21,270 nucleotides of DNA from a virus, in the IMG/VR virus record IMGVR_UViG_3300010883_000607, positions 1 through 21,270 of that record. The stretch is one strand, 5' to 3'. Positions 9,741-21,270 of this stretch are shown here, piece after piece. Position numbers and translations under genes: made by a program. The notes under the pieces are model-generated. The model saw only the letters and a list, made by a program, of their open reading frames with translations, was not told the origin of the DNA and did not search any database. Position 1 is the first letter of the stretch; each line of letters begins with the position of its first letter.

Positions 9741-12700
9741 TTAAATGTTTGAGCCTGCATTTGTTACCACAAAGTCCAATGCAACGAATTCTGCAGTTCT
9801 TGTAGGTTGTAAGAATATTTTTCCGCGAATGGTATTATTTTCAACATCAGCTTGTGTTGTTGTTGTTGTATCTATAATAACTTTATAACGATCGACGCCG
9901 CTTTGTTCTTGGACTCTTTGCAAGATTGGATTAACTAATGCAGTAAATTTCTCCAATGTTTCTTGTCTATTTGGTTCAAAGAGTAAAGAATTAGCAACAT
10001 TTCTAACCTGGCGTCTTATATTGATGAGTAACCTTCTAACATTCACTCTATCTAGTGCGGAGGGGGATGCTAATAATGTTTTCTGTCCCCATACAACCAC
10101 TCCAGTTCCTGGAAATGCTGTTAGTGGATTGATATCTGCTGCATAAAGATCATCTAAATTTGTCCTATTTAGTCTAACAGCAGCTAGTTCAACTGATTTT
10201 AGTGAGCCTCTAGAGAAACCTGCAGGTGCAAACCAAGGATGCCCTAACTGGTCATTTAATCCAAATGCGCCTAAGACAGGAACTGACGGCGGAACTTGCA
10301 CATTACTATTAGTAGTAGGATCGATGACTACTGTGTTTGGAAAATAAGCTGCGCTGAATGATGAATCTAGCGCGCGTCCTTTGAATGCATTAACTGTATT
10401 AAGTACATGAGGCCGTTGATTTGATCCAGTTATAACTGTATTAAACTGATCTCTTTCTTCAATGTCCATAATGTACATTGCATCAAATCTATTTTCAACT
10501 GCAGTCATTGCATAATCACTTATTGCGCTATGTCTCATTCCTGGAATTGCTAAAAGTTGAATATCAACATCAGATTTTGATTCCATAATATCTATTGCTT
10601 TACGATAAGCAGCAACTGTTGGACCTGACGTTCCGCCTTGCGTTGTTGTAAAGTCCATTTCTCTCTTTGCTGATGCATTATTTAATGCAATTTGATCTGC
10701 ATTAAATAAATTAGTACCCTCAAAGCCGCCTTGCAAAAATAATGTAAATTTGGAATAAGTTCTATTTCCTACACGTTCTAGATCTGTTACTCGCCAAGCA
10801 CGAGTCTTATTAGTACTATTTATAGAAATGCTTCCCTGCCTCACGTATGAAGCACTTTGCCAATGTTCAATATCAGCGTATCCATCACTTCCCGTTCTAA
10901 CTCTGACTCTCTCTAGGGAAAATATATTATTATTAAATCTATCACAATCTAACACAGACCCTAGTACATCAGCAGTACCTTGATTATTTCCTACTGATAC
11001 ATTAGTTCTTGAGCCCCCTAATCTTGGAAAGTATTTTGCATAGGATTCAAAGCTTGATTCAAATAATCCAACTTTGTTAGGCTCAGTAAGTGATACTTTT
11101 CTAGTAAATTGAGAACCCCAGTATAATCTTGCATCTGCTCGTGTTCTTATTCCTGTCCCAATTGCAACATTCTCTCGATAAGGAATGGGAGGTTCAGACA
11201 TTTGCTGTAATTTTGTAGAAACAGCATAAATACTATTGTCATTTGATAATAAACTTCCTGACGTTACTAGGTGATTGGGCCCTCTATAACCTACAGGTAA
11301 TGCTTCTGACGGAACTTGATTTGATGTTAACTTTGAAGATTGTTCTAGCCTTATATAATTTGATTTTACAGGATAATCGCCGGCGACAAGAATTTTTTGA
11401 GACGTCGTTGCATTATCAAATGCAAAATAAATATGTTGATCACCTATAACACGCGGTGCAAATCTATTAGAATTATGATCAAGGCTTAAACCTCTAAAAG
11501 ATTCTAAAACAACCTTTTCATCATCTGTGTCGTTAAAAGCACGTATAACTAAATCAAATGTACCGTAAAGATACGTTGTTGTTGACGATTTTACAATATT
11601 TTCAATTGATACTTTTATTTTTGTATTTCCTTCTGCGCCTGGTGACAAATAAATAATTCTAAATAGATCGTCTCCTGATCCACCAAAGTTTTGTGTTATA
11701 ACATAAGGTGACGCTGCATACCTAAATCTATCTTCAAAATTTTCATAATCAGGTATACTTGTTGAAACACCTGAGTCGGCATTTCTTGCCAGCGAAGATG
11801 TAAGTAAAAAAGCAATGTCTTCTTTAGTTGTTGTGCCTGCAGAATACCTTCCATTTGGAATTGCACCTGTTCCTGTTACAGCTGCTAAAGTAGGATAAAT
11901 GTCATAATGAGAATAAAGTAAGTGTCCTTTCTCTTCAATCTTTAGTGGATCTGTATTCAATACGTTTGCAAAATACGCAGGTGATGTAAGGTCGAAAGAT
12001 GCAGTAATAACATTAGATGCGCCACCTTTTCTATTAAAACCATTAAGGAGCATAACAAATTGCTGATTTGCCAATGTCAGTGACCCTGTCATAAAGCCTT
12101 TTCTTGGCGCTAAGCTTGCATCGGATGTTGTTGCAGTCTGTGTGCTACTAGGGACATTTCCAATCGATGTGCTGTTACCTGATAGTGACAAAATTACACC
12201 GGACGGTGCCATTAAAATGCCTCGAAGAATAGTGGTTGCACCACCTTTCCCACCAGATAATGTAGCTGCGTCAATTGTTGGAGACCCTGCCACGTCTGTA
12301 ATTGTGATCTTGTTTCCAAAAGGACCCTTAGCGTCACAAGTTAAAATTAAGTTAGTACCGTCTAACGATGCTGTAATTCCTTTTACACCGGATGAGTAGT
12401 CTGCACCCGGTGTTGGTGTACCTGCTGATACAACGCCGGCAAGTGTTCCATCGTTAATAAAATCTACGATATTTGCAGCCCCAGTGGCATCTACTGGACC
12501 AGTGAGAATACCTACACCTAGCTTGTCTAGCCCAAGGGCTCCAAGTCCGGTGTTGTTGCCATTAGTGAAACCTATTTGAAATTGTACACCGGTGCCTCCT
12601 GCGCCTACCGGAATGGTTATACCAATAACCTCGGTTGTTACAGGATCAGCGAGATCAAAAACAGTAGCTGTAGCGGTGCCATCTGGTTGTTGAATTCCTG

Positions 12701-13166
12701 CACTACTAAAAATTGTTGAGCCATTTGACTCAGACATTAGACAACCCAAGAAAAATGTACGACCAAGTTTAGAGCCGATGCCGGAGTTTGCATAAGTATT
12801 GTCGCCATAACTTCCATTATTTTGAATAACTCTACTACCTGCAATAAATCCTGCATTTGTTACACGACCGGTCGTTCCATTTCTTTTTTGACAATTACCT
12901 GCACCCATAATTCTAATAAAAGTACATGCTCTAGCATTTTTTAGCCATTCATTAACAGCTAGCGGTCCAAATTTTTTACCATCTGTTTCACCAAACAACT
13001 TTTGAAATTCTGAAAAAGTTGCAACTGTTATAGGCACAAAAGCAGGACCTTGAATTGAAGTTCCTATGATACCCGCAGGAACTCCTTGAGGACCTTGAAT
13101 TGTCGGTCCAGAAAGGTCGATTTCTCTTGTGCTAACTCCTGCACTTTTAAATGTTAATTCTGGCAT
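9741..13166 (-). CDS. Tail sheath protein, second paralogue with inserted domain (1141 aa)
   Basis: The longest frame begins at a TTG (13172), but GGAG stands 7 bases before the ATG at 13166 (MPELTFKSAG), which is chosen. Family signatures are clear: N-terminal GVPAGIIGTSIQGPAFVPIT, then AVNEWLKNARACTFIRIMGA; C-terminal HPWFAPAGFSRGSL, VVWGQKTL, RVNVRRLLINIRRQV and PTRTAEFVALDFVVTNAG. These are the conserved domains that interlock to form the contractile sheath. At 1141 residues it is far longer than T4 gp18 (659); part of the excess is an insert at residues about 159-310 that is more GC-rich than the rest. It is a paralogue of the gene just upstream, matching strongly at both ends and weakly in the middle. 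Confidence 0.9.
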   Translation of the reverse strand: MPELTFKSAGVSTREIDLSGPTIQGPQGVPAGIIGTSIQGPAFVPITVATFSEFQKLFGETDGKKFGPLAVNEWLKNARACTFIRIMGAGNCQKRNGTTGRVTNAGFIAGSRVIQNNGSYGDNTYANSGIGSKLGRTFFLGCLMSESNGSTIFSSAGIQQPDGTATATVFDLADPVTTEVIGITIPVGAGGTGVQFQIGFTNGNNTGLGALGLDKLGVGILTGPVDATGAANIVDFINDGTLAGVVSAGTPTPGADYSSGVKGITASLDGTNLILTCDAKGPFGNKITITDVAGSPTIDAATLSGGKGGATTILRGILMAPSGVILSLSGNSTSIGNVPSSTQTATTSDASLAPRKGFMTGSLTLANQQFVMLLNGFNRKGGASNVITASFDLTSPAYFANVLNTDPLKIEEKGHLLYSHYDIYPTLAAVTGTGAIPNGRYSAGTTTKEDIAFLLTSSLARNADSGVSTSIPDYENFEDRFRYAASPYVITQNFGGSGDDLFRIIYLSPGAEGNTKIKVSIENIVKSSTTTYLYGTFDLVIRAFNDTDDEKVVLESFRGLSLDHNSNRFAPRVIGDQHIYFAFDNATTSQKILVAGDYPVKSNYIRLEQSSKLTSNQVPSEALPVGYRGPNHLVTSGSLLSNDNSIYAVSTKLQQMSEPPIPYRENVAIGTGIRTRADARLYWGSQFTRKVSLTEPNKVGLFESSFESYAKYFPRLGGSRTNVSVGNNQGTADVLGSVLDCDRFNNNIFSLERVRVRTGSDGYADIEHWQSASYVRQGSISINSTNKTRAWRVTDLERVGNRTYSKFTLFLQGGFEGTNLFNADQIALNNASAKREMDFTTTQGGTSGPTVAAYRKAIDIMESKSDVDIQLLAIPGMRHSAISDYAMTAVENRFDAMYIMDIEERDQFNTVITGSNQRPHVLNTVNAFKGRALDSSFSAAYFPNTVVIDPTTNSNVQVPPSVPVLGAFGLNDQLGHPWFAPAGFSRGSLKSVELAAVRLNRTNLDDLYAADINPLTAFPGTGVVVWGQKTLLASPSALDRVNVRRLLINIRRQVRNVANSLLFEPNRQETLEKFTALVNPILQRVQEQSGVDRYKVIIDTTTTTQADVENNTIRGKIFLQPTRTAEFVALDFVVTNAGSNI
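12239..12692 (-). other. GC-rich domain insertion inside the second sheath protein
   Basis: Residues about 159-310 of this sheath (TVFDLADPVTTEVIGITIPV ... ANIVDFINDGTL ... GPFGNKITITDVAG ... LSGGKGG) resemble the small beta domain with a terminal xxGG motif that recurs in phage structural proteins. The neighbouring sheath lacks it at the equivalent place. Hand counts give about 47-53% G+C in three lines of this segment, against 27% in a sampled line of the first sheath gene. Confidence 0.6.
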
Positions 13167-13205
13167 TTGCAAACTCCATCTACTAAACTTATTTTTAAAT
13201 ATTTT

Positions 13206-16200
13206 CTAATCAAAACTTACACCCGAATTTGTTATAATAAAGTCAATTGCAATAAACTCAACTGCTCTTGTCGGTACCAAAACAATTCTTCCGTTTAATC
13301 GATTTGATTCGACGTCCTCAGGTGAATTGTTTGATGAATCCATAACAACTTTAAACTGATCAATACCTTGCTGGCTTTGTATTATTGAAAGTAGCGGCGT
13401 AACTTGTGCAACAAATTTAGTCCTAGTGCTTGGTGTATTTTGATCAAAGACAATTTTGTTTGCGACGTCTGAAACCAATCGTTTCACTTCAATTAACATC
13501 CTTCTAACATTGACACGATCTAAAGCACTTTGTGCTTGTTGTAATGTTTTTTGTCCAAAAATAACGAATCCTCCATTAGGAAAATTAGCAATAGGATTTA
13601 TTCTATTTTCATAAAGTTCGTCTCTTTCTGACGTTGTTAGCCTTGTTGACGTATTCACTACTGACTCTAGAGCGCCGCGATTAAAACCAGCAGGAGCAAA
13701 CCATGGATAAGCAACAGCATCTGTATAGCCTAAAGCACCTACGACAACAACAGAGGCCGGTACTTTTGCTGCCCTACCATTGATGGGATCAGAAATACTC
13801 ACATCAGGAAAATAAGCACCAGCATAACTATTATCAATGTTTCTTGCAGAAAATTGTTCAGCTGTTGTTCGTACATCAGGTGATGCAACATTGCCGTCAA
13901 ATATTATTTTTTTATCATTACTATACTGCGGTATATCCATGATATAGAAACCTTTACTATAGTCACGGGTTCTGTCTGCAATGTAGTCAGTAACAAATGA
14001 ATCTCTCATTCCGGGGACGGCAATTATATTTACTCTAGAAGCCATGGGATCTGTTAATATTCGACCAGCAGCTCGATAAGCTGCTACTGTATTATTATTT
14101 TTCCCCACGCCCGGTGCATAATCACTACTTAGATTAATTCTACTATTTTTTCCGCCGGCTGCTTTACCACCTGATGCTGCATCTGAAGAAGCAGCACGAT
14201 CATTCATAAGTCGCATATCACTATCAAGAATATTATTGCCATCAAATCCGCCATACATCATATTTGTAAACTTGTTATAATCAACAAATCTATTAAAGTA
14301 AACATGTGAGGTTGGATGAGCGTATAATGAAGCTATTGATAGTCTACTTAGCGTGCCATCTGTAAGCGAATAATTAGCATTGTCAGGATCTTTATCTCTT
14401 AAGTATGCCGCTTCGCGAATATGTGTAGCAGCTGATCCTGTAATTGTAGCTTCAATCGCTGCTTGTAAAGTTTGTCCGCTAGTAATAGAATTGTATAAAG
14501 CAACGCGAGCTAATGTAAACTTATTATCATTAAATGCATCTGCACCAGACCCTGTTACTAGTGCATCTAACTTACTTATTCCTAAAAATTTAGAATAAGA
14601 AGAAATAAGCTTGTTAGGTGTAGATGATGCATTAGATTGCAGTACTGCATTTGAAATTGATGCTGTTGAAGGGAGTCTTTCAAACTTAATGCCCCAATAG
14701 TATCTTGAATCTGCAAGCTCTAATGTTCCAGGTTCACCAATAAATGCAGGTGATGATGATTGTTTTACTGCTCCGCGTGTTGATTTAAATCTAAGCGGGA
14801 CAGGTGGTAAAATTGAACCTGTTAAGGCTGCTGGGATTACAGACCCTACAACTGAGATAGATCCCGAAACTAAGCCTAGCCTTGGTTTAATATTTGTTGC
14901 ATTTCCTATTCCTGCCAAACCCAATGTATTGTCATCAGTTAGTGTATCATTTGTTTTAATAACAGGTAAGCCTCTAAATCCAAATGGAAGCGCATCTTTA
15001 GGAATATCGCCAGCATTCAGTGCATCACTTAAAACAATTCTTACATAACTAGACTTGTTAGGATGAGAACCTTCTACAACTAATCGACGTTCAGATTCAG
15101 TTTCTGCATCAAAATTATAAAATACTTTATAATCACCAATTTTCTTTCCAACAAAGTTTTCATTAGCAGGATTTAAATTGCATAAAGGAAAGCTTTCTAA
15201 AATTTTTGTATCTGTATCTGTATCATTAAAGTCTCGAATTTCTAATGTAAAGGTACCATACTCTGTTTTAGGATTTGTAGATTTTTTTACATCTCTAATT
15301 GAAATTTTAAATTTGCCATTGATAACTGACCCATCTGATATTGTTTCTAAATAAAATAAATCATATTCTGATGATCCATACGGCTGTGAAATAAAGTTTG
15401 TTGTTCTTGCAGGTTGATATCTTGTGTCAAATTTACCAAATGTATTTATAAATTTTAATGATGTATCGCCAGAATTACCGCTTGTATTTTGCGATCCTGA
15501 TACTAAGCATACATAGCTTTTTAATCCTGATCTTTTAACTTTTGCAACTTCACTCTCTACTGGGAAGTCTGCGTATAATAAGTGTTGCTCTGCTGAAAAC
15601 CTACTTGGATCTTTATTTAATATCTTTCCAATGTAAAATTTACTATCTGGGTCAAGCGATGCTGTATAGATCTTAATTCCTGCTCTACCTTCATCAGATG
15701 CAAAATTTGATCCCATAGCAGAAGATACAATTAATTTAAACGTACCTTGTGTATCTGATCCGTTATAAGCACTTATGTATGCATCATCACCCGGTGTTCT
15801 AGAACCCGGTGTAGTTGGGTAAAATGCATTAGACCCTGTTATTTCTAATCTTGATCCCGAAGCTGTAAATACCATTGCTCGGATGAGATGTACGTCTCCT
15901 CCTGTTGACAATCCGTAAGATCTATTGTCAGTAAAAATAGGATAACCTGCAACTTCATAGTTTGTAGGTACTTCATGTGTCGCTGCAATAAACTGCACTG
16001 CACCTTTGTATCTACCATCAGCAGTACTTGCAGCTTGTCCTTTTATTATAAAACCAGCATTCTTTACTGTACCTTGTGTACGTGTTACATTAATATCTGT
16101 AGTTGATGCATTGGATCCAGCACCCAGCACCCTGATATATGTTACTGCTGTTCTATTTTTTAAAAATTCATTAACTGCGTACGGAGCAAAATTTTCTGAA

Positions 16201-16382
16201 TTAAGATCTCCAAACTTTTTCGTAAAATCAATCATCGACCCAACTGTTACCGGTACAAATGCAGGTCCTGTCTGTGACGTCCCTGCAATACCTGCAGGAA
16301 CCCCCGTTATTTGACGTTCACGTTGGGTTAAGTCTATTTCTCTTTCGAAAAAACCCGGAGATTTAAATGTCTGTTCGGCCAT
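13206..16382 (-). CDS. Tail sheath protein, first paralogue (1058 aa)
   Basis: The frame is open from 16421, but AGGAG lies 7 bases before the ATG at 16382 (MAEQTFKSPGFF), which also aligns with the start of the second sheath, so this start is used. The N-terminal domain (REIDLTQRERQITGVPAGIA, AVNEFLKNRTAVTYIRVLGA) and C-terminal domain (YPWFAPAGFNRGALES, FGQKTLQQ, RVNVRRMLIEVKR, PTRAVEFIAIDFIITNSG) are typical of myovirus sheath proteins. The middle third, with ESFPLCNLNPANENFVGKKI and similar segments, is the variable, surface-exposed part. A 39-base gap separates it from its paralogue. The pair probably arose by duplication and then diverged; both keep the contraction-critical ends, so both are probably functional. 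Confidence 0.9.
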   Translation of the reverse strand: MAEQTFKSPGFFEREIDLTQRERQITGVPAGIAGTSQTGPAFVPVTVGSMIDFTKKFGDLNSENFAPYAVNEFLKNRTAVTYIRVLGAGSNASTTDINVTRTQGTVKNAGFIIKGQAASTADGRYKGAVQFIAATHEVPTNYEVAGYPIFTDNRSYGLSTGGDVHLIRAMVFTASGSRLEITGSNAFYPTTPGSRTPGDDAYISAYNGSDTQGTFKLIVSSAMGSNFASDEGRAGIKIYTASLDPDSKFYIGKILNKDPSRFSAEQHLLYADFPVESEVAKVKRSGLKSYVCLVSGSQNTSGNSGDTSLKFINTFGKFDTRYQPARTTNFISQPYGSSEYDLFYLETISDGSVINGKFKISIRDVKKSTNPKTEYGTFTLEIRDFNDTDTDTKILESFPLCNLNPANENFVGKKIGDYKVFYNFDAETESERRLVVEGSHPNKSSYVRIVLSDALNAGDIPKDALPFGFRGLPVIKTNDTLTDDNTLGLAGIGNATNIKPRLGLVSGSISVVGSVIPAALTGSILPPVPLRFKSTRGAVKQSSSPAFIGEPGTLELADSRYYWGIKFERLPSTASISNAVLQSNASSTPNKLISSYSKFLGISKLDALVTGSGADAFNDNKFTLARVALYNSITSGQTLQAAIEATITGSAATHIREAAYLRDKDPDNANYSLTDGTLSRLSIASLYAHPTSHVYFNRFVDYNKFTNMMYGGFDGNNILDSDMRLMNDRAASSDAASGGKAAGGKNSRINLSSDYAPGVGKNNNTVAAYRAAGRILTDPMASRVNIIAVPGMRDSFVTDYIADRTRDYSKGFYIMDIPQYSNDKKIIFDGNVASPDVRTTAEQFSARNIDNSYAGAYFPDVSISDPINGRAAKVPASVVVVGALGYTDAVAYPWFAPAGFNRGALESVVNTSTRLTTSERDELYENRINPIANFPNGGFVIFGQKTLQQAQSALDRVNVRRMLIEVKRLVSDVANKIVFDQNTPSTRTKFVAQVTPLLSIIQSQQGIDQFKVVMDSSNNSPEDVESNRLNGRIVLVPTRAVEFIAIDFIITNSGVSFD

Positions 16383-16389
16383 CAAACCA

Positions 16390-16394
16390 CTCCT
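16390..16394 (-). promoter_or_regulatory. Ribosome binding site AGGAG fixing the first sheath start at 16382
   Basis: AGGAG with a 7-base spacer precedes the ATG at 16382. The upstream in-frame ATG at 16421 has no comparable site and would add 13 residues absent from the paralogue. Confidence 0.8.
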
Positions 16395-16438
16395 TTTCAT
16401 TCTATCAGATATAACTATCAATCACGAAGCTAATTATC

Positions 16439-17722
16439 TCATTCTGATTGATTATCAATTTTCTTTATTATTGCAGGACCAATAACAGTTTCACCTGCTC
16501 TTTGATTTATTAATTTTATCTTTCCATACTTTGTTTTTTTACTATTATTAAATGGGTCTTCTACAAAATATGCAACTTTTTCACTAGATTGCCCTCTTTC
16601 TAAATAACTGCCATCAATACTTTCAATTTTTTCTATATCACTAAGTATAAATTTATCTAAATTGTCTTTAGAATACTCGCCACCCTCTTCCTTTATAACT
16701 TGTGTATGAGCTGAATAATAACCAAAATCTAGTTGTGGCGCAGAATAAAATGATTTAAACGGTGATGATTCACCTTCAGGTTGATTTGCTACAATATAGC
16801 CCGGGACTTTTATATTAAAACTATACTTGATAACCCTTTCGCTATCACTGAAGTCTTCTAAATTCGTGCTTTGCCTAAATGATTCATCAAAAAATATAAC
16901 TAACTCGTATCCCTTTGCCGTTTTTATTGCAATTTGATTTTTTTGATTAAGACTTGCTAGCAACATTTCCATAACTTCATTTGCTTGTTGCATATACTGG
17001 ACCCAAAAAGTTACATTATAAGTAACTGTAATAAAAGAGGGATAAGCCATTTGAATTATTTCAAATATGTTGTCACCAATTTTTGACTCAATACCTACTT
17101 TGCCTGCCTTGTCTAAAAAACTAACATTTCCTTTGTTTCTTCTAGAAGCTAATGTATCGCTACTTGCAATTGCACCTGGACTAATATCTGAGCCATCAAC
17201 AAAATGCCCTAATGAAGCAACATTATCTTGATTCTTAAGATCTAGCTTATTGATAATATTTTGATAGTCTCTGTCAGATGTTGCTAATCTTTTTTTAATA
17301 AAATACTCTGATTGACTTCTATAAGCAATTGCAGTTCCAAAACCACCCTGACCTGATGAAAAATCAATATCTTCTCTTAAGATAGATATTACCGGTAAGA
17401 TAATTGCATTATTACTATCTCGAATAGGGCTGTCTCTTCTTGTAAGTGCAAATCGTTCTCCTGCAGCAAATATAACAGGAACTTTTGTTGTGTTTCCTTG
17501 ATACGTTACTTGTAATGATATATCTTTGTCAAATAATGTAAATACTGCTCTATCTATATCTTCAATGCCAAATGCAGGAATATGAAAGTCACTTGGCACA
17601 TTTGTTCCATCTCTCCCAAGTTGAATTACTTGTTTAGCTGATGGCACACCATTTTGTTGAACTGTATCGGCACTTTGAATTGTTTTATTATTCAATTTGT
17701 TGTTTTTAGATGAAGTAGTCAT
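16439..17722 (-). CDS. Tail sheath stabiliser / tail completion protein (T4 gp15-like, 427 aa)
   Basis: Residues about 54-121 (IEDIDRAVFTLFDKDISL, then TKVPVIFAAGERFALTRRDS and NNAIILPVISILREDI) match the gp15 pattern of a strand followed by VPVIFAxxERF and LPVIxxxR. Residues about 225-320 (PSFITVTYNVTFWVQYMQQA, RVIKYSFNIKVPGYIVA) complete the fold. In T4, gp15 caps the top of the tube and sheath as a hexamer and connects to the neck. The protein is longer than T4 gp15 (272) through a hydrophilic N-terminus, a middle segment and a C-terminal tail of about 100 residues. The start has only a weak GAGAG. It lies 5 bases after the gp14-like gene and just before the sheaths, as expected. Confidence 0.75.
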   Translation of the reverse strand: MTTSSKNNKLNNKTIQSADTVQQNGVPSAKQVIQLGRDGTNVPSDFHIPAFGIEDIDRAVFTLFDKDISLQVTYQGNTTKVPVIFAAGERFALTRRDSPIRDSNNAIILPVISILREDIDFSSGQGGFGTAIAYRSQSEYFIKKRLATSDRDYQNIINKLDLKNQDNVASLGHFVDGSDISPGAIASSDTLASRRNKGNVSFLDKAGKVGIESKIGDNIFEIIQMAYPSFITVTYNVTFWVQYMQQANEVMEMLLASLNQKNQIAIKTAKGYELVIFFDESFRQSTNLEDFSDSERVIKYSFNIKVPGYIVANQPEGESSPFKSFYSAPQLDFGYYSAHTQVIKEEGGEYSKDNLDKFILSDIEKIESIDGSYLERGQSSEKVAYFVEDPFNNSKKTKYGKIKLINQRAGETVIGPAIIKKIDNQSE

Positions 17723-17727
17723 GATTA

Positions 17728-18393
17728 TTAACTCTCGTCATAAAATGAAGAGCCTGTCTTTTTTGAACCACCTTGCGGTGAAACTTCAGCAGGTCCTGTT
17801 ATTGGCTTTGTAAGAACTCCATTTTTTTGCAAGTCTCTAATATCTCCTGTCAAGCCCTCTTGATTGCGCTTAAAACCTCTTTGCTGTGCAAATGTTTTTT
17901 GTGTAGCATTTTCATCTGAGTATGATTCGTCTGTAGGGCCAAATAGCTTACTTAAAAACAATCCTTTTCTAGATTGCTTTCCTGTTAAAGTTATATAGCC
18001 ACTATACTCAATTTCTCCATAAATGATACTAGAAACGGGTGCTTTAATAATTTCAAAAAATACAGTCCCATAAGAAAAGAAGTCTCCTTCTTGAATTTCT
18101 AGCCCTTTGTCTAGTAGATCTCGTGATTGAATATAGACTTCTATTGTATAATATTCCTCAGCGCCAAATCGGCCTGTTGTAATTTGATCAGCTGAATATA
18201 AAACTAGTGCATCAACTGATACAGGGTTTTCAAATATTTTATCAACAGCTTCTTCATAGACGTCATGTATTTTAGTTTTAACTGTAGAAATTGGAAAAAG
18301 ATAAATCTTTTGACCAATTACATCTTTTACTATTTCTTTTCCTAAATCATTAATAAAGTTGATTTCTTTTGGTGTTATAAAAAGTCGTGACAT
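17728..18393 (-). CDS. Neck protein (T4 gp14-like, 221 aa)
   Basis: The N-terminal half (FITPKEINFINDLGKEIVKD, VIGQKIYLFPIS, VYEEAVDKIFENPVSVDALV) and the segment YTIEVYIQSRDLLDKGLEIQ, EGDFFSYGTVFFEII match the neck family of T4-like phages, in which gp14 forms a ring between head and tail. T4 gp14 has 256 residues. The C-terminal 60 residues are polar, with Gln/Lys/Gly, and probably flexible. The ribosome binding site is weak (GGGAT), and the gene follows the gp13-like stop by 6 bases, so coupling is likely. The neck assignment is fairly firm from motif and position; the exact ring it forms is inferred. Confidence 0.75.
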   Translation of the reverse strand: MSRLFITPKEINFINDLGKEIVKDVIGQKIYLFPISTVKTKIHDVYEEAVDKIFENPVSVDALVLYSADQITTGRFGAEEYYTIEVYIQSRDLLDKGLEIQEGDFFSYGTVFFEIIKAPVSSIIYGEIEYSGYITLTGKQSRKGLFLSKLFGPTDESYSDENATQKTFAQQRGFKRNQEGLTGDIRDLQKNGVLTKPITGPAEVSPQGGSKKTGSSFYDES

Positions 18394-18399
18394 GTTAAT

Positions 18400-19566
18400 T
18401 TATCCCATAAAAATTGCTTTTGGTATTGGAACGTAACTTAACTGTTTATTGAGCAATTCTGCTCTAGTAGACTGTATCTCAACTAATTTATCATATGTTA
18501 GCGATTCTAACATTTCTGTTAATGCAGTTTTTAACTTTTCTTGGTCTTCTCTGCCTTCTCCAATCAAAGAAGTTCCATTTAAACTTAAATCACCACCAGG
18601 TATAGGCACACTAGCAAATTTTGATCTGACTAGCCCTAAAACTTCTCTACTTAATGCTAATGTATACTGCCTTATCCACTGCTTGCCAATAGAATTTATT
18701 CTATTATAAATTAAATTACCAAATGGTATATTGCTTAAATTTGAAACACCCTCAATTGAATCATCCTGATACGCTGGCTTAAGCGGATCTGAAGAATACC
18801 TTACTTTTATCCATAGCTTACTAGGCTGGACAGGAACACCTGTTGGCATAGGATACATTCTAATATTTGTTCCTACAACTTCATACGAATAGTTAGACCT
18901 TCTAACCCTGTTTGATAAATCCAATTGTCCTGCCCTTAGTATGTCTTCAAAAACTGGCAATACATAAAAAATCGTCTCAGGTGTAAATGATTCAAAACTA
19001 AATTCATTGTTTAAATAGTTTATAGCGCTAGTTGTATCAAAAAATCTATAAGCAGCTTGGGGACTAAAATGAAAAACTTCAACAATTTTGAGCTTGCCTT
19101 TTCTAGTCTGCTGATCGAAAATTACTTCGCCGGCCTGATTTTTAAGATCAGAGTATATATCATAATCCTGTTTTTGTGAAGTAAGTGTTATAGAACCTGA
19201 TATCGTATTATAAGACCCACCAATGCCGGCTTCCATTGCATAGGGCTCAGCTGCTCTAGACATAAAATCTAGATTTTCACGTGGTAATTTCTGTTCTGAC
19301 CCTGATAAAATACTACCTGTTGAATAGCCTAAAAAATTTACCATTTGTGATTTTGCTTGGTACTGATTTAATATTGAACCATACTCAAAAAGTGATTCTT
19401 CAAAACAACCCCATATTTGCTTTTTTGTCAATTCAACAGACAATATATCATCACCCATCTTTCTCTTAACAAATGTAACCATTTTATCAGCATCAGCTGA
19501 AAATTGTGAATCATTGTCAAAAACTCCAAAGGGTGTTGGATTTGATGTATTCGCAAATATTGCCAC
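18400..19566 (-). CDS. Neck / head-completion protein (T4 gp13-like, 388 aa)
   Basis: An ATG at 19578 opens the longest frame but lacks a ribosome binding site; GGAGG lies 5 bases before a GTG at 19566, giving (M)AIFANTSNPTPFGVFDNDSQ, and this start is preferred. Residues about 29-62 (MVTFVKRKMGDDILSVELTK, IWGCFEESLFEYG) and the later helix-strand blocks (FRFFDTTSAINYL-like, PSKLWIKVRYSSDP) resemble a neck protein that precedes the gp14-like gene in T4-type phages; T4 gp13 has 309 residues. It would bind the portal or close the filled head before the tail joins. The gp13 equivalence rests on the pattern, on its place before gp14- and gp15-like genes, and on size, so it is moderate. Confidence 0.6.
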   Translation of the reverse strand: MAIFANTSNPTPFGVFDNDSQFSADADKMVTFVKRKMGDDILSVELTKKQIWGCFEESLFEYGSILNQYQAKSQMVNFLGYSTGSILSGSEQKLPRENLDFMSRAAEPYAMEAGIGGSYNTISGSITLTSQKQDYDIYSDLKNQAGEVIFDQQTRKGKLKIVEVFHFSPQAAYRFFDTTSAINYLNNEFSFESFTPETIFYVLPVFEDILRAGQLDLSNRVRRSNYSYEVVGTNIRMYPMPTGVPVQPSKLWIKVRYSSDPLKPAYQDDSIEGVSNLSNIPFGNLIYNRINSIGKQWIRQYTLALSREVLGLVRSKFASVPIPGGDLSLNGTSLIGEGREDQEKLKTALTEMLESLTYDKLVEIQSTRAELLNKQLSYVPIPKAIFMG

Positions 19567-19571
19567 GTATG

Positions 19572-19576
19572 CCTCC
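19572..19576 (-). promoter_or_regulatory. Ribosome binding site GGAGG fixing a GTG start at 19566
   Basis: GGAGG with a 5-base spacer precedes GTG at 19566. The ATG at 19578 lies upstream of the site and is preceded by AT-rich sequence with no Shine-Dalgarno match. Confidence 0.7.
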
Positions 19577-19579
19577 ATA

Positions 19580-19683: not shown

Positions 19684-20793
19684 TTACATTCCACCTAATG
19701 CAAAGATTGCTACAACACCGGGAATTCTTTCTCTTACGTATACACCAGAAAATAACGTATCAGACCTTCCGCCTACGTAAGATATAGCTGATTCCATTTG
19801 ATTAGAAGCAACAGGGTCACTAGCAGTTTCAGTGCTTGCAATCAGTAATAAACAACCAACTTTTGGCCTTCCAGAAGGCGGCGGACATGGTGATCTTTCT
19901 GAACACCCTTTAAAAATCTTAAGACCTAGTTTGTCATCTTTGAAGTCTCTTATTGCGCAAGTCCCTAAAAACATGCGCCCATTTGCTTGTAAACATTTTT
20001 CTAAATCTTGCGTGTCAAATGACTGAATTGGTGAACTTTCTGATGCCAATTTAAAAACTTGAGATAGCATTTTTGCAAAATTTGTATTTGCAGTTGGGTA
20101 CATTCCCAACATTCCAACTTTGCCGCGAAGTAATTCTAACTGTCTTTCATTATCAATTATTATATGCGGACGGGATCTAACGTTGTTAATCAAGTGTGTA
20201 TAGTTAATTTTTATTGTAGGATTAAGCTTTTCTTGTGACGTTGGTTCACTTACGATATACACAACATTGCCTTTAGCTTGGACTGAATCTAAGTATCTTT
20301 GGAATACATCATGCAATGTTAATGTTGAACTGCCTGTTCCTCCACCGCCTGACGCACAAACAAATAACCAATCAACTTTTCCTAATCGAGCACGAAGTGT
20401 GTCTTCAACAAAAGTTCCATTTTCATTCAATACTTGTTGTCCTGCTTTTATATCTTTTCCTACACCGTCTGCACCATCTAAGAGCAAGAAGTGCTGCGGG
20501 CTTGTTCCTGCAGGCTGGTCCTTATGTGTTGTGTTGATTAAGACAGTGCGATTATAACCTAAATCAAGGAACGCCTTTGCAAGCTTACCACCGCCGCCTC
20601 CGATCCCTATAAATGCACAGTTTATAGCTGTTTGTGCTGTATTTTCAGGTAATAGTTCTGAGTTGGCATCAATTTTGTCTTCACCGTAATGATCAACAAA
20701 ATCTAAATCACCCAAATCCATAAAGTCGTTAGTTTGTGGCTCAGGTTGCTGTGCTGTTTCGCCTTCAATCTTTGGATCTTCACTTGTGTTCAT
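19684..20793 (-). CDS. FtsZ/tubulin-family GTPase encoded by the phage (369 aa)
   Basis: The longest frame starts at 20871, but no ribosome binding site precedes that ATG, whereas AGAGGA lies just before the ATG at 20793 (MNTSEDPKIE), which is used. Numbered from there: residues 1-53 are acidic (15 D/E, 2 K) and probably disordered; the phosphate-binding loop GIGGGGGK is at 63-70; the tubulin signature GGGGTGSS at 149-156; IIIDNERQL with a likely base-contacting Asn near 215; and the catalytic T7-loop-like FDTQDL supplies D260 and D263. The protein ends at ALGGM with no FtsZ-like C-terminal peptide and no long C-terminal tail as in PhuZ. All parts for GTP binding and polymer-coupled hydrolysis are visible. 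It lies between a terminator and the neck genes. A filament function is likely; what it moves or positions is unknown. Confidence 0.85.
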   Translation of the reverse strand: MNTSEDPKIEGETAQQPEPQTNDFMDLGDLDFVDHYGEDKIDANSELLPENTAQTAINCAFIGIGGGGGKLAKAFLDLGYNRTVLINTTHKDQPAGTSPQHFLLLDGADGVGKDIKAGQQVLNENGTFVEDTLRARLGKVDWLFVCASGGGGTGSSTLTLHDVFQRYLDSVQAKGNVVYIVSEPTSQEKLNPTIKINYTHLINNVRSRPHIIIDNERQLELLRGKVGMLGMYPTANTNFAKMLSQVFKLASESSPIQSFDTQDLEKCLQANGRMFLGTCAIRDFKDDKLGLKIFKGCSERSPCPPPSGRPKVGCLLLIASTETASDPVASNQMESAISYVGGRSDTLFSGVYVRERIPGVVAIFALGGM

Positions 20794-20797
20794 AATT

Positions 20798-20803
20798 TCC
20801 TCT
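20798..20803 (-). promoter_or_regulatory. Ribosome binding site AGAGGA fixing the tubulin-like start at 20793
   Basis: AGAGGA lies 4 bases before the ATG at 20793. The in-frame ATG at 20871 is preceded by AT-rich sequence without a match and would place this purine-rich site inside the coding region. Confidence 0.7.
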
Positions 20804-20886
20804 TTTTTAATTTTTATCTTTATTGTGCGATCAAATAAACCGCCAAACGATACTTTAGTTGTCGACGACATAGTATGATTATTACA

Positions 20887-20895: not shown

Positions 20896-20908
20896 AAAAA
20901 GTAAATAA

Positions 20909-20940
20909 AAAAGACACCCTCTAATGAGAGAGTGTCTTTT
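20909..20940 (-). terminator. Strong rho-independent terminator after the small virion protein
   Basis: AAAAGACAC-T-CTCT-CATT-AGAG-G-GTGTCTTTT forms a 14-bp stem with a 4-base loop and then T-rich sequence on the minus strand. The single imperfect pair is a G-U wobble on the minus strand but a C-A mismatch on the plus strand, showing that it serves the gene ending at 20961. Confidence 0.85.
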
Positions 20941-20960
20941 TTAAAGTATCTTTATACCAA

Positions 20961-21270
20961 TTATGATGTGTGCTTCACAACAAATACAACATTTAATCTT
21001 CTAGCACCTGACGCGCCACCATCATTATCTAATGATATAGCTTCACCTGCTGCGACTGCCATTGAAAGTGATGTATCAGACTTTACTGTCCCTGCTGCAT
21101 CACCTGATGCAAAAACAAGTGTTGATGTCCCTACTCCCTCTACTTGTATTGTAAAAGTTGCCGTAGCGCCTGGTGTGCCACCTGAATTTGTTGCATATGC
21201 TGCAACAAGTGTTCCTGCAACCGGGCATGCGACAAAGCAATCATTACCTGATCCGCTGATATCTTTTATA
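20961..21270 (-). CDS. Small virion surface/decoration-like protein (C-terminal 103 codons, partial)
   Basis: The frame is open from the right edge to TAA at 20961, and its start lies outside the window. About 102 residues are visible: CFVACPVAGTLVAAYATNSG, then TATFTIQVEGVGTSTLVFAS, DTSLSMAVAAGEAISLDNDG and RRLNVVFVVKHTS. It is rich in Gly, Ala, Thr, Ser and Val with alternating strands, a one-domain beta-sandwich. The layout (P-x-A-G-T-L early, V-x-A-G-E-A-I late, then D-N-D-G) matches small proteins of about 110-130 residues often found among phage head genes. A capsid decoration or other surface role is inferred, and most of the protein is probably present. A strong terminator follows. 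Confidence 0.6.
   Translation of the reverse strand, partial: IKDISGSGNDCFVACPVAGTLVAAYATNSGGTPGATATFTIQVEGVGTSTLVFASGDAAGTVKSDTSLSMAVAAGEAISLDNDGGASGARRLNVVFVVKHTS

Follow-up and report, generated by a model that had tools for sequence, protein, structure and literature searches.

Phage-encoded tubulins are discussed almost solely in connection with the phage nucleus, as PhuZ, or with plasmid-like partition, as TubZ, and reviews treat phage tubulin as one or the other of these (PMC7950403, PMC13282480). A stretch of 21,270 nucleotides (positions 1 to 21,270 of IMG/VR virus record IMGVR_UViG_3300010883_000607, hereafter the window) has a tubulin-like gene inside a block of virion structural genes, next to those for the neck and the tail sheath. 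This raises the question of what kind of tubulin is encoded there, and of whether its place in the structural block says anything about its function.

The gene is a single frame of 369 amino acids on the minus strand, from 20793 to 19684, opposite which the plus strand has no open frame; the first-pass annotation of the window had its coordinates (19684-20793) exactly, without giving the strand. It is assigned to the tubulin/FtsZ-superfamily GTPases on the open reading frame, family matches, the predicted fold and a tree. The start of the gene is not fully settled. A strong ribosome-binding sequence precedes the ATG at 20793 (AAAGAGGAAATT-ATG), which would favour this start, and none is seen before an alternative ATG at 20871, from which a possible in-frame 5' extension (20794-20871, minus strand) would add 26 residues to give a protein of 395 amino acids. 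Several relatives with the gene order of the window have a readable upstream extension that starts M-A/P-S-S/T and is lysine-rich; the GTPase domain is the same with either start.

Upstream of the tubulin gene, and likewise on the minus strand, is the end of a surface-protein-like ORF (20961-21269) that is cut by the window edge; it has counterparts (F64) in loci L002 and L004, and family searches with this partial ORF gave no match. The terminator-like hairpin that follows it (20906-20943, minus strand), just upstream of the tubulin gene, would set the latter apart as its own unit. On the other side, again on the minus strand, are a gp13-like neck protein or head-tail adaptor (18400-19578, PHROG 211), a conserved gene assigned to the gp14 position by its place and without a family match (17728-18393), a gp15-like tail sheath stabiliser (16439-17722, family match) and two tandem tail sheath genes (9741-16421, comprising 9741-13172 and 13206-16421, family matches), downstream of which is a tube gene. 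The neighbours are those first described, surface-protein-like on one side and neck, sheath and tube on the other. The sheath genes encode 1143 and 1071 amino acids, each with the sheath C-terminal domain, and tandem pairs of this kind are frequent among the relatives.

That the gene belongs to the tubulin/FtsZ superfamily is secure at the superfamily level. The single window protein matches Pfam Tubulin (1.5e-4), NCBIfam FtsZ (5.2e-6) and PHROG PhuZ (5.9e-5), all of which fall under the curated cut-offs where such cut-offs exist, the last being a weak match that spans the GTPase half only; Pfam Tubulin matches 41 of 42 family members, at best with 1.7e-10. The best single-sequence match in the PDB is the archaeal CetZ 3zid (1.7e-5), and a family profile finds FtsZ, CetZ and TubZ there at about 1e-9 to 1e-5. 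From a 42-sequence alignment AlphaFold (AF2) gave, at high confidence (pLDDT 88.6, pTM 0.84), a two-domain tubulin fold with the long central helix H7 and a tubulin-like C-terminal domain, and the fold on which the claim of a tubulin depended is thus present in the model. Structure comparison (VIA-align) ranks TubZ first (4ei7, Z 32.3, rmsd 2.3, 308 residues aligned), followed by CetZ2 (4b45, Z 31.6) and then FtsZ (Z about 28); no PhuZ chain is among the 50 PDB structure matches listed, which by itself says nothing on likeness to PhuZ. An NAD/FAD enzyme was also considered and rejected: dehydrogenase matches in the PDB are marginal and confined to the glycine-rich N-terminal stretch, and they drop beneath the tubulin matches once the family profile is used.

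The loops of the active site can be read from an alignment of the relatives and are, all on the minus strand, the glycine-rich phosphate loop T1 (GIGGGGGK, residues 63-70, 20584-20607), loop T3 (GADGVGKD, residues 107-114, 20452-20475), the tubulin signature of loop T4 (GGGGTGSS, residues 149-156, 20326-20349), loop T5 (PTSQE, residues 184-188, 20230-20244), a DNE motif (residues 214-216) and loop T7 (residues 256-265, 19999-20028, including FDTQD at 259-263). D260 and D263 of the last align with the two catalytic T7 aspartates of FtsZ and are both found in 111 of 111 sequences, as are G63, G65, G66, G68, K70, N87-T88-T89, D109-G110, K113, G150-S155, P184, Q187-E188, D214-N215-E216 and N236. 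The phosphate loop, GGGGTGSS and both T7 aspartates were the grounds on which the first-pass annotation had proposed a tubulin/FtsZ-like GTPase, and both the fold and the 111-sequence alignment agree with it. Loop T1 ends in a lysine (K70, 111/111), the counterpart of which in E. coli FtsZ is an asparagine, and nucleotides may be handled differently as a result. Selection on the gene is strongly purifying, with a dN/dS of 0.02-0.07 over all pairs with unsaturated dS. In known tubulins the T7 aspartates hydrolyse GTP that is held by the neighbouring subunit, and their invariance in this family argues for head-to-tail polymers; on these residues the phage protein would be expected both to hydrolyse GTP and to polymerise.

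The N-terminal arm is acidic, variable in length and of low pLDDT in the AF2 model. The relatives have in common an acidic motif there (residues 28-38, 20680-20712, minus strand) with the consensus DDFDFVxxYDD, the aromatics of which are near-invariant (F30 in 103, F32 in 107 and Y36 in 105 of 108 sequences). At the other end 0-7 residues follow the last conserved glycine (G368) across the 111 aligned sequences, in which neither the linker and peptide of FtsZ nor the tail of TubZ was found. Because such a C-terminal tail is missing, the acidic arm with its DDFDFVxxY is probably the adaptor or cargo site.

In a tree with PhuZ, FtsZ, CetZ, plasmid TubZ and gp138 of Bacillus phage G the family forms its own clade (100/100) on a long stem, and the FtsZ and PhuZ clades (each 100/100) both exclude it. 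Its neighbours are TubZ and phage G with support that is too low for use, the grouping that involves gp138 and plasmid TubZ being weak (71.5/52); the three CetZ sequences do not group with it, in a tree whose deep branches are weak and in which CetZ and archaeal FtsZ are represented by partial sequences taken from printed alignments. The family is best read as a new branch, and not as FtsZ, PhuZ or TubZ proper. Whilst FtsZ has a like fold and like GTPase motifs, the window protein scores 26 bits against an NCBIfam cut-off of 295.2 and has no C-terminal peptide. TubZ, from Bacillus plasmids and phages, is alike in its T-loops and T7 aspartates at 16% identity, however TubZ proteins end in a C-terminal tail and come with a TubR/tubS locus, neither of which was seen here, the partner having been sought among the adjacent genes of 68 loci. 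CetZ, at 20-21% identity, is a cellular protein of archaea with a cell-shape function and does not group with the family in this weakly supported part of the tree. PhuZ is likewise a phage-encoded tubulin of large myoviruses, those that form a nucleus, yet it is the poorer structural match, and the relatives of the window are T4-type phages without a detected shell gene.

Two further viral proteins can be compared with the family. Gp138 of Bacillus phage G, a "putative FtsZ-like cell division protein", is also a phage tubulin outside the PhuZ clade and is the sole match of the family profile in the annotated records tested (E 1.4e-19). It is a distant relative from another phage lineage, with about 25% identity over half the length, and unlike the window family it has a long C-terminal extension and does not have the acidic N-terminal motif. 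The best viral structural match is A0A6J5RW92 in BFVD (E 3.8e-24, TMq 0.75), a 452 amino acid "FtsZ Cell division GTPase" of an uncultured Caudovirales phage with 19% identity, and such proteins are thus already public under automatic FtsZ names.

Relatives of the gene are numerous, with at least 323 in IMG/VR in a scan with the family alignment, in which 80 of the 323 matches were listed; a scan with the protein alone listed 32. Contigs that bear the gene reach 293 kb, and each of the 12 large contigs tested has one copy, with a T4-type major capsid gene (PHROG 138) in 11/12 and a contractile sheath gene (PHROG 23) in 12/12. The nuclear-shell family was found in 0/12 of these contigs, which may be incomplete, in a search that did detect the phiKZ positive control. 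The terminase of one tubulin contig is nearest to that of Flavobacterium phage immuto (47.6%) and then Microcystis phage Mel-JY01 (43%); by terminase and sheath no annotated phages come nearer than these two, and the tubulin has no match in either, nor in the uncultured 484-kb genome LR756508. A search of 50,697 annotated phage records with the window protein gave no match, tblastn of the tubulins of L083 and L113 against annotated phages matched only gp138 of phage G, and the plasmids searched gave two weak TubZ-type matches only. Some tubulin-bearing phage contigs are in bacterial bins, namely L111 and L112 in one Flavobacteriales assembly and L113 in a Halobacteriovorax assembly; these assemblies are metagenome bins and hence no proof of host, being either a host hint or a binning error.

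Two further features were seen in the genomes of these phages. In two of the largest contigs the T4-type major capsid gene occurs as a tandem pair (G001:C1:176341-180096 and G004:C1:139182-142911). Otherwise unlike ORFs have a common N-terminal tag of about MKITKRQLRRIIKEE, with 17 such ORFs in G007 and 11 in G001, and it was absent from shuffled N-termini; examples are L254:6644-16239, L297:1038-7725 and L277:3486-4925, with further ORFs in G001, G007, G005 and G018. One possibility is that it targets these proteins, for instance to the head during packaging.

The order seen in the window, capsid, (surface gene), tubulin, gp13, next neck gene, gp15, sheath and sheath, is found in about 25 of 68 representative loci. 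There is a second group in which the tubulin gene has portal-side genes on one side and the head maturation protease on the other, and at other loci it is beside PhoH, a fused SbcCD-like gene, or small membrane-protein-like or unknown genes. On large contigs the tubulin gene is anywhere between about 1 kb and about 155 kb away from the capsid gene, and about 9 to 155 kb away on the contigs without the window order. The question of whether relatives keep the position thus has a divided answer, with about a third of the representatives keeping it and the remainder having the gene elsewhere. Conversely, amongst 57 loci that have a window-like gp13 and enough flank, 14 have the tubulin upstream and 43 do not, and for 12 of 13 contigs behind the gp13 loci without it there is no tubulin anywhere (up to 176 kb), with a copy at the end of the thirteenth. 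The gene is accessory and mobile in position, and its position is therefore no argument for the role near head-tail joining that had been suggested from the window, a suggestion that these counts do not bear out. The variable order, and the absence from many close relatives, favour a protein that acts in trans, and the tubulin is probably an accessory function rather than a part of the neck. The observation that its context is unlike that of PhuZ or TubZ has held. At two loci (L025:12792-13378 and L026:9391-9983) adjacent small ORFs by or near the tubulin gene are membrane-protein-like and membrane-anchor-plus-coiled-coil-like; by eye only they resemble a lysis cassette, and they have no family matches beyond weak ones.

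A directional motif, ATANTTA, occurs upstream of structural genes in the relatives of the window, mostly 25-45 bases before the start, and precedes 32/39 sheath, 14/14 F9 and 19/29 gp13 genes. It also precedes the tubulin gene in 18 of 20 cases with the window gene order (shuffles: mean 4.5, maximum 11) and in 9 of 25 cases elsewhere (mean 3.0, maximum 8), counts that are not independent of its discovery, as the motif was noticed in the same regions in which it was later counted. The tubulin of the window itself has a site with one mismatch, ATAATCA (20876-20882, minus strand). The motif is distinct from the late promoter of T4, TATAAATA, which is not enriched (2 found against 3.2 expected). 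As a promoter-like motif common to tubulin, neck and sheath genes it suggests late expression, so the late timing first proposed from gene context is probable, and expression together with the virion genes has moderate support.

We hold with about even confidence that this late-made tubulin forms GTP-driven cytoplasmic filaments, which would probably position or move capsids, phage DNA or assembly sites. The protein would be made alongside the virion proteins, and its GTP-bound subunits would add head to tail into filaments in the cytoplasm; the T7 aspartates of one subunit would reach the GTP of the next, and the resulting hydrolysis would make the filaments dynamic. The N-terminal arm would link the filaments to capsids, DNA or membrane, and in cells crowded with large phages they could then bring newly made capsids, phage DNA or assembly sites into place or move them. 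Both the cargo and the function are guesses, with PhuZ, which carries capsids along its filaments, as the comparison (PMC13282480).

The conserved GTPase domain could also belong to a GTP-binding switch or sensor that has kept the tubulin fold and lost long polymers. The lysine that invariably replaces the usual asparagine in T1 fits such a protein, and polymerisation is itself a prediction; the two invariant T7 aspartates would be useful only across a subunit interface, and we regard this reading as decidedly unlikely. It is somewhat less unlikely, although still improbable, that the protein co-assembles or competes with host FtsZ and thereby blocks division and enlarges the cell for phage production. 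Its fold is that of FtsZ, which is a known target of phage proteins, however the known inhibitors are usually small early proteins, and the promoter-like motif here is of the late type. Furthermore identity to FtsZ in structure alignments is 15-18%, the clades are separate, the catalytic T7 loop is intact and the FtsA/ZipA-type C-terminal peptide is missing. A GTPase with a structural or scaffolding part in joining head to tail, or in building the tail, would account for the place of the gene amid capsid and neck genes in 25 of the 68 representatives, for its place next to portal and head protease genes in another group, and for the motif of neck and sheath genes ahead of it. Yet phages with near-identical neck genes do without the tubulin, and in others some 9-155 kb separate it from the capsid gene, which leaves a virion role with only a slim chance.

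Two more readings follow the established kinds of phage tubulin. Partition in the manner of TubZ, for a plasmid-like prophage or pseudolysogen, would be in keeping with the highest structural Z and with the weak tree grouping with gp138 and plasmid TubZ. It would seem very unlikely given that no gene is consistently adjacent in 68 loci, where TubR would be expected, that the C-terminal tail is missing and that there are many T4-type structural genes. For a spindle like that of PhuZ, with a phage nucleus at its centre, one can point to the weak PHROG PhuZ match, which 21 of 42 members have. Against this, PhuZ is a separate clade, the model has a TM of 0.46-0.53 to PhuZ models compared with 0.68-0.75 to FtsZ-like phage models, and the shell family is in none of the 12 contigs, which are possibly incomplete and in which an unrelated shell protein would escape detection; we consider such a spindle highly improbable.

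A lead on nucleotide supply comes from gene content. When four tubulin-bearing contigs are set against three tubulin-free ones, two other genes are left, one for an unknown 149 amino acid protein and one that is IMP dehydrogenase/GMP reductase-like. The latter is in 10/13 tubulin-bearing and 0/12 tubulin-free contigs, counts that are uncorrected for kinship, and the tubulin-free contigs are short, such that the chance of 0/12 is 0.6-5% given genomes of 200-300 kb. It is also present in two phages without the tubulin, and in the reverse direction a tubulin was seen on 2 of 16 additional contigs that have the gene. The gene encodes about 344 amino acids and is found at L274:4126-5157, L026:3375-4400 and on at least nine more contigs, among them most of the large tubulin-bearing ones. 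As a lead only, a phage IMP dehydrogenase may be paired with the tubulin in a group of these phages, supplying guanine nucleotides.

PhuZ is present in only about two thirds of the phages that bear a shell gene (PMC10299810), and in a survey of marine jumbo phages the shell and tubulin genes were described as unique to the phiKZ-like cluster (PMC9123017). In the open-licence literature our searches gave no account of a tubulin family from marine phages of the T4 type, which is not proof of priority as subscription papers are mostly outside it. Why phages need cytoskeletal proteins has been left open in review, with large virions suggested as a cause (PMC7950403). A tubulin that is conserved in some T4-type phages with no detectable shell gene, and absent from close relatives of theirs, offers a natural comparison between a tubulin that serves the nucleus and one that serves large virions. 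The prokaryotic tubulin tree gains a deep branch with an unusual layout, with an N-terminal motif and no C-terminal tail. Tentatively, and with more doubt than for the filaments themselves, a widespread marine T4-type lineage without detectable shell genes may have its own late tubulin cytoskeleton that carries or arranges capsids and DNA and has an N-terminal cargo motif, perhaps paired with IMP dehydrogenase in one group.
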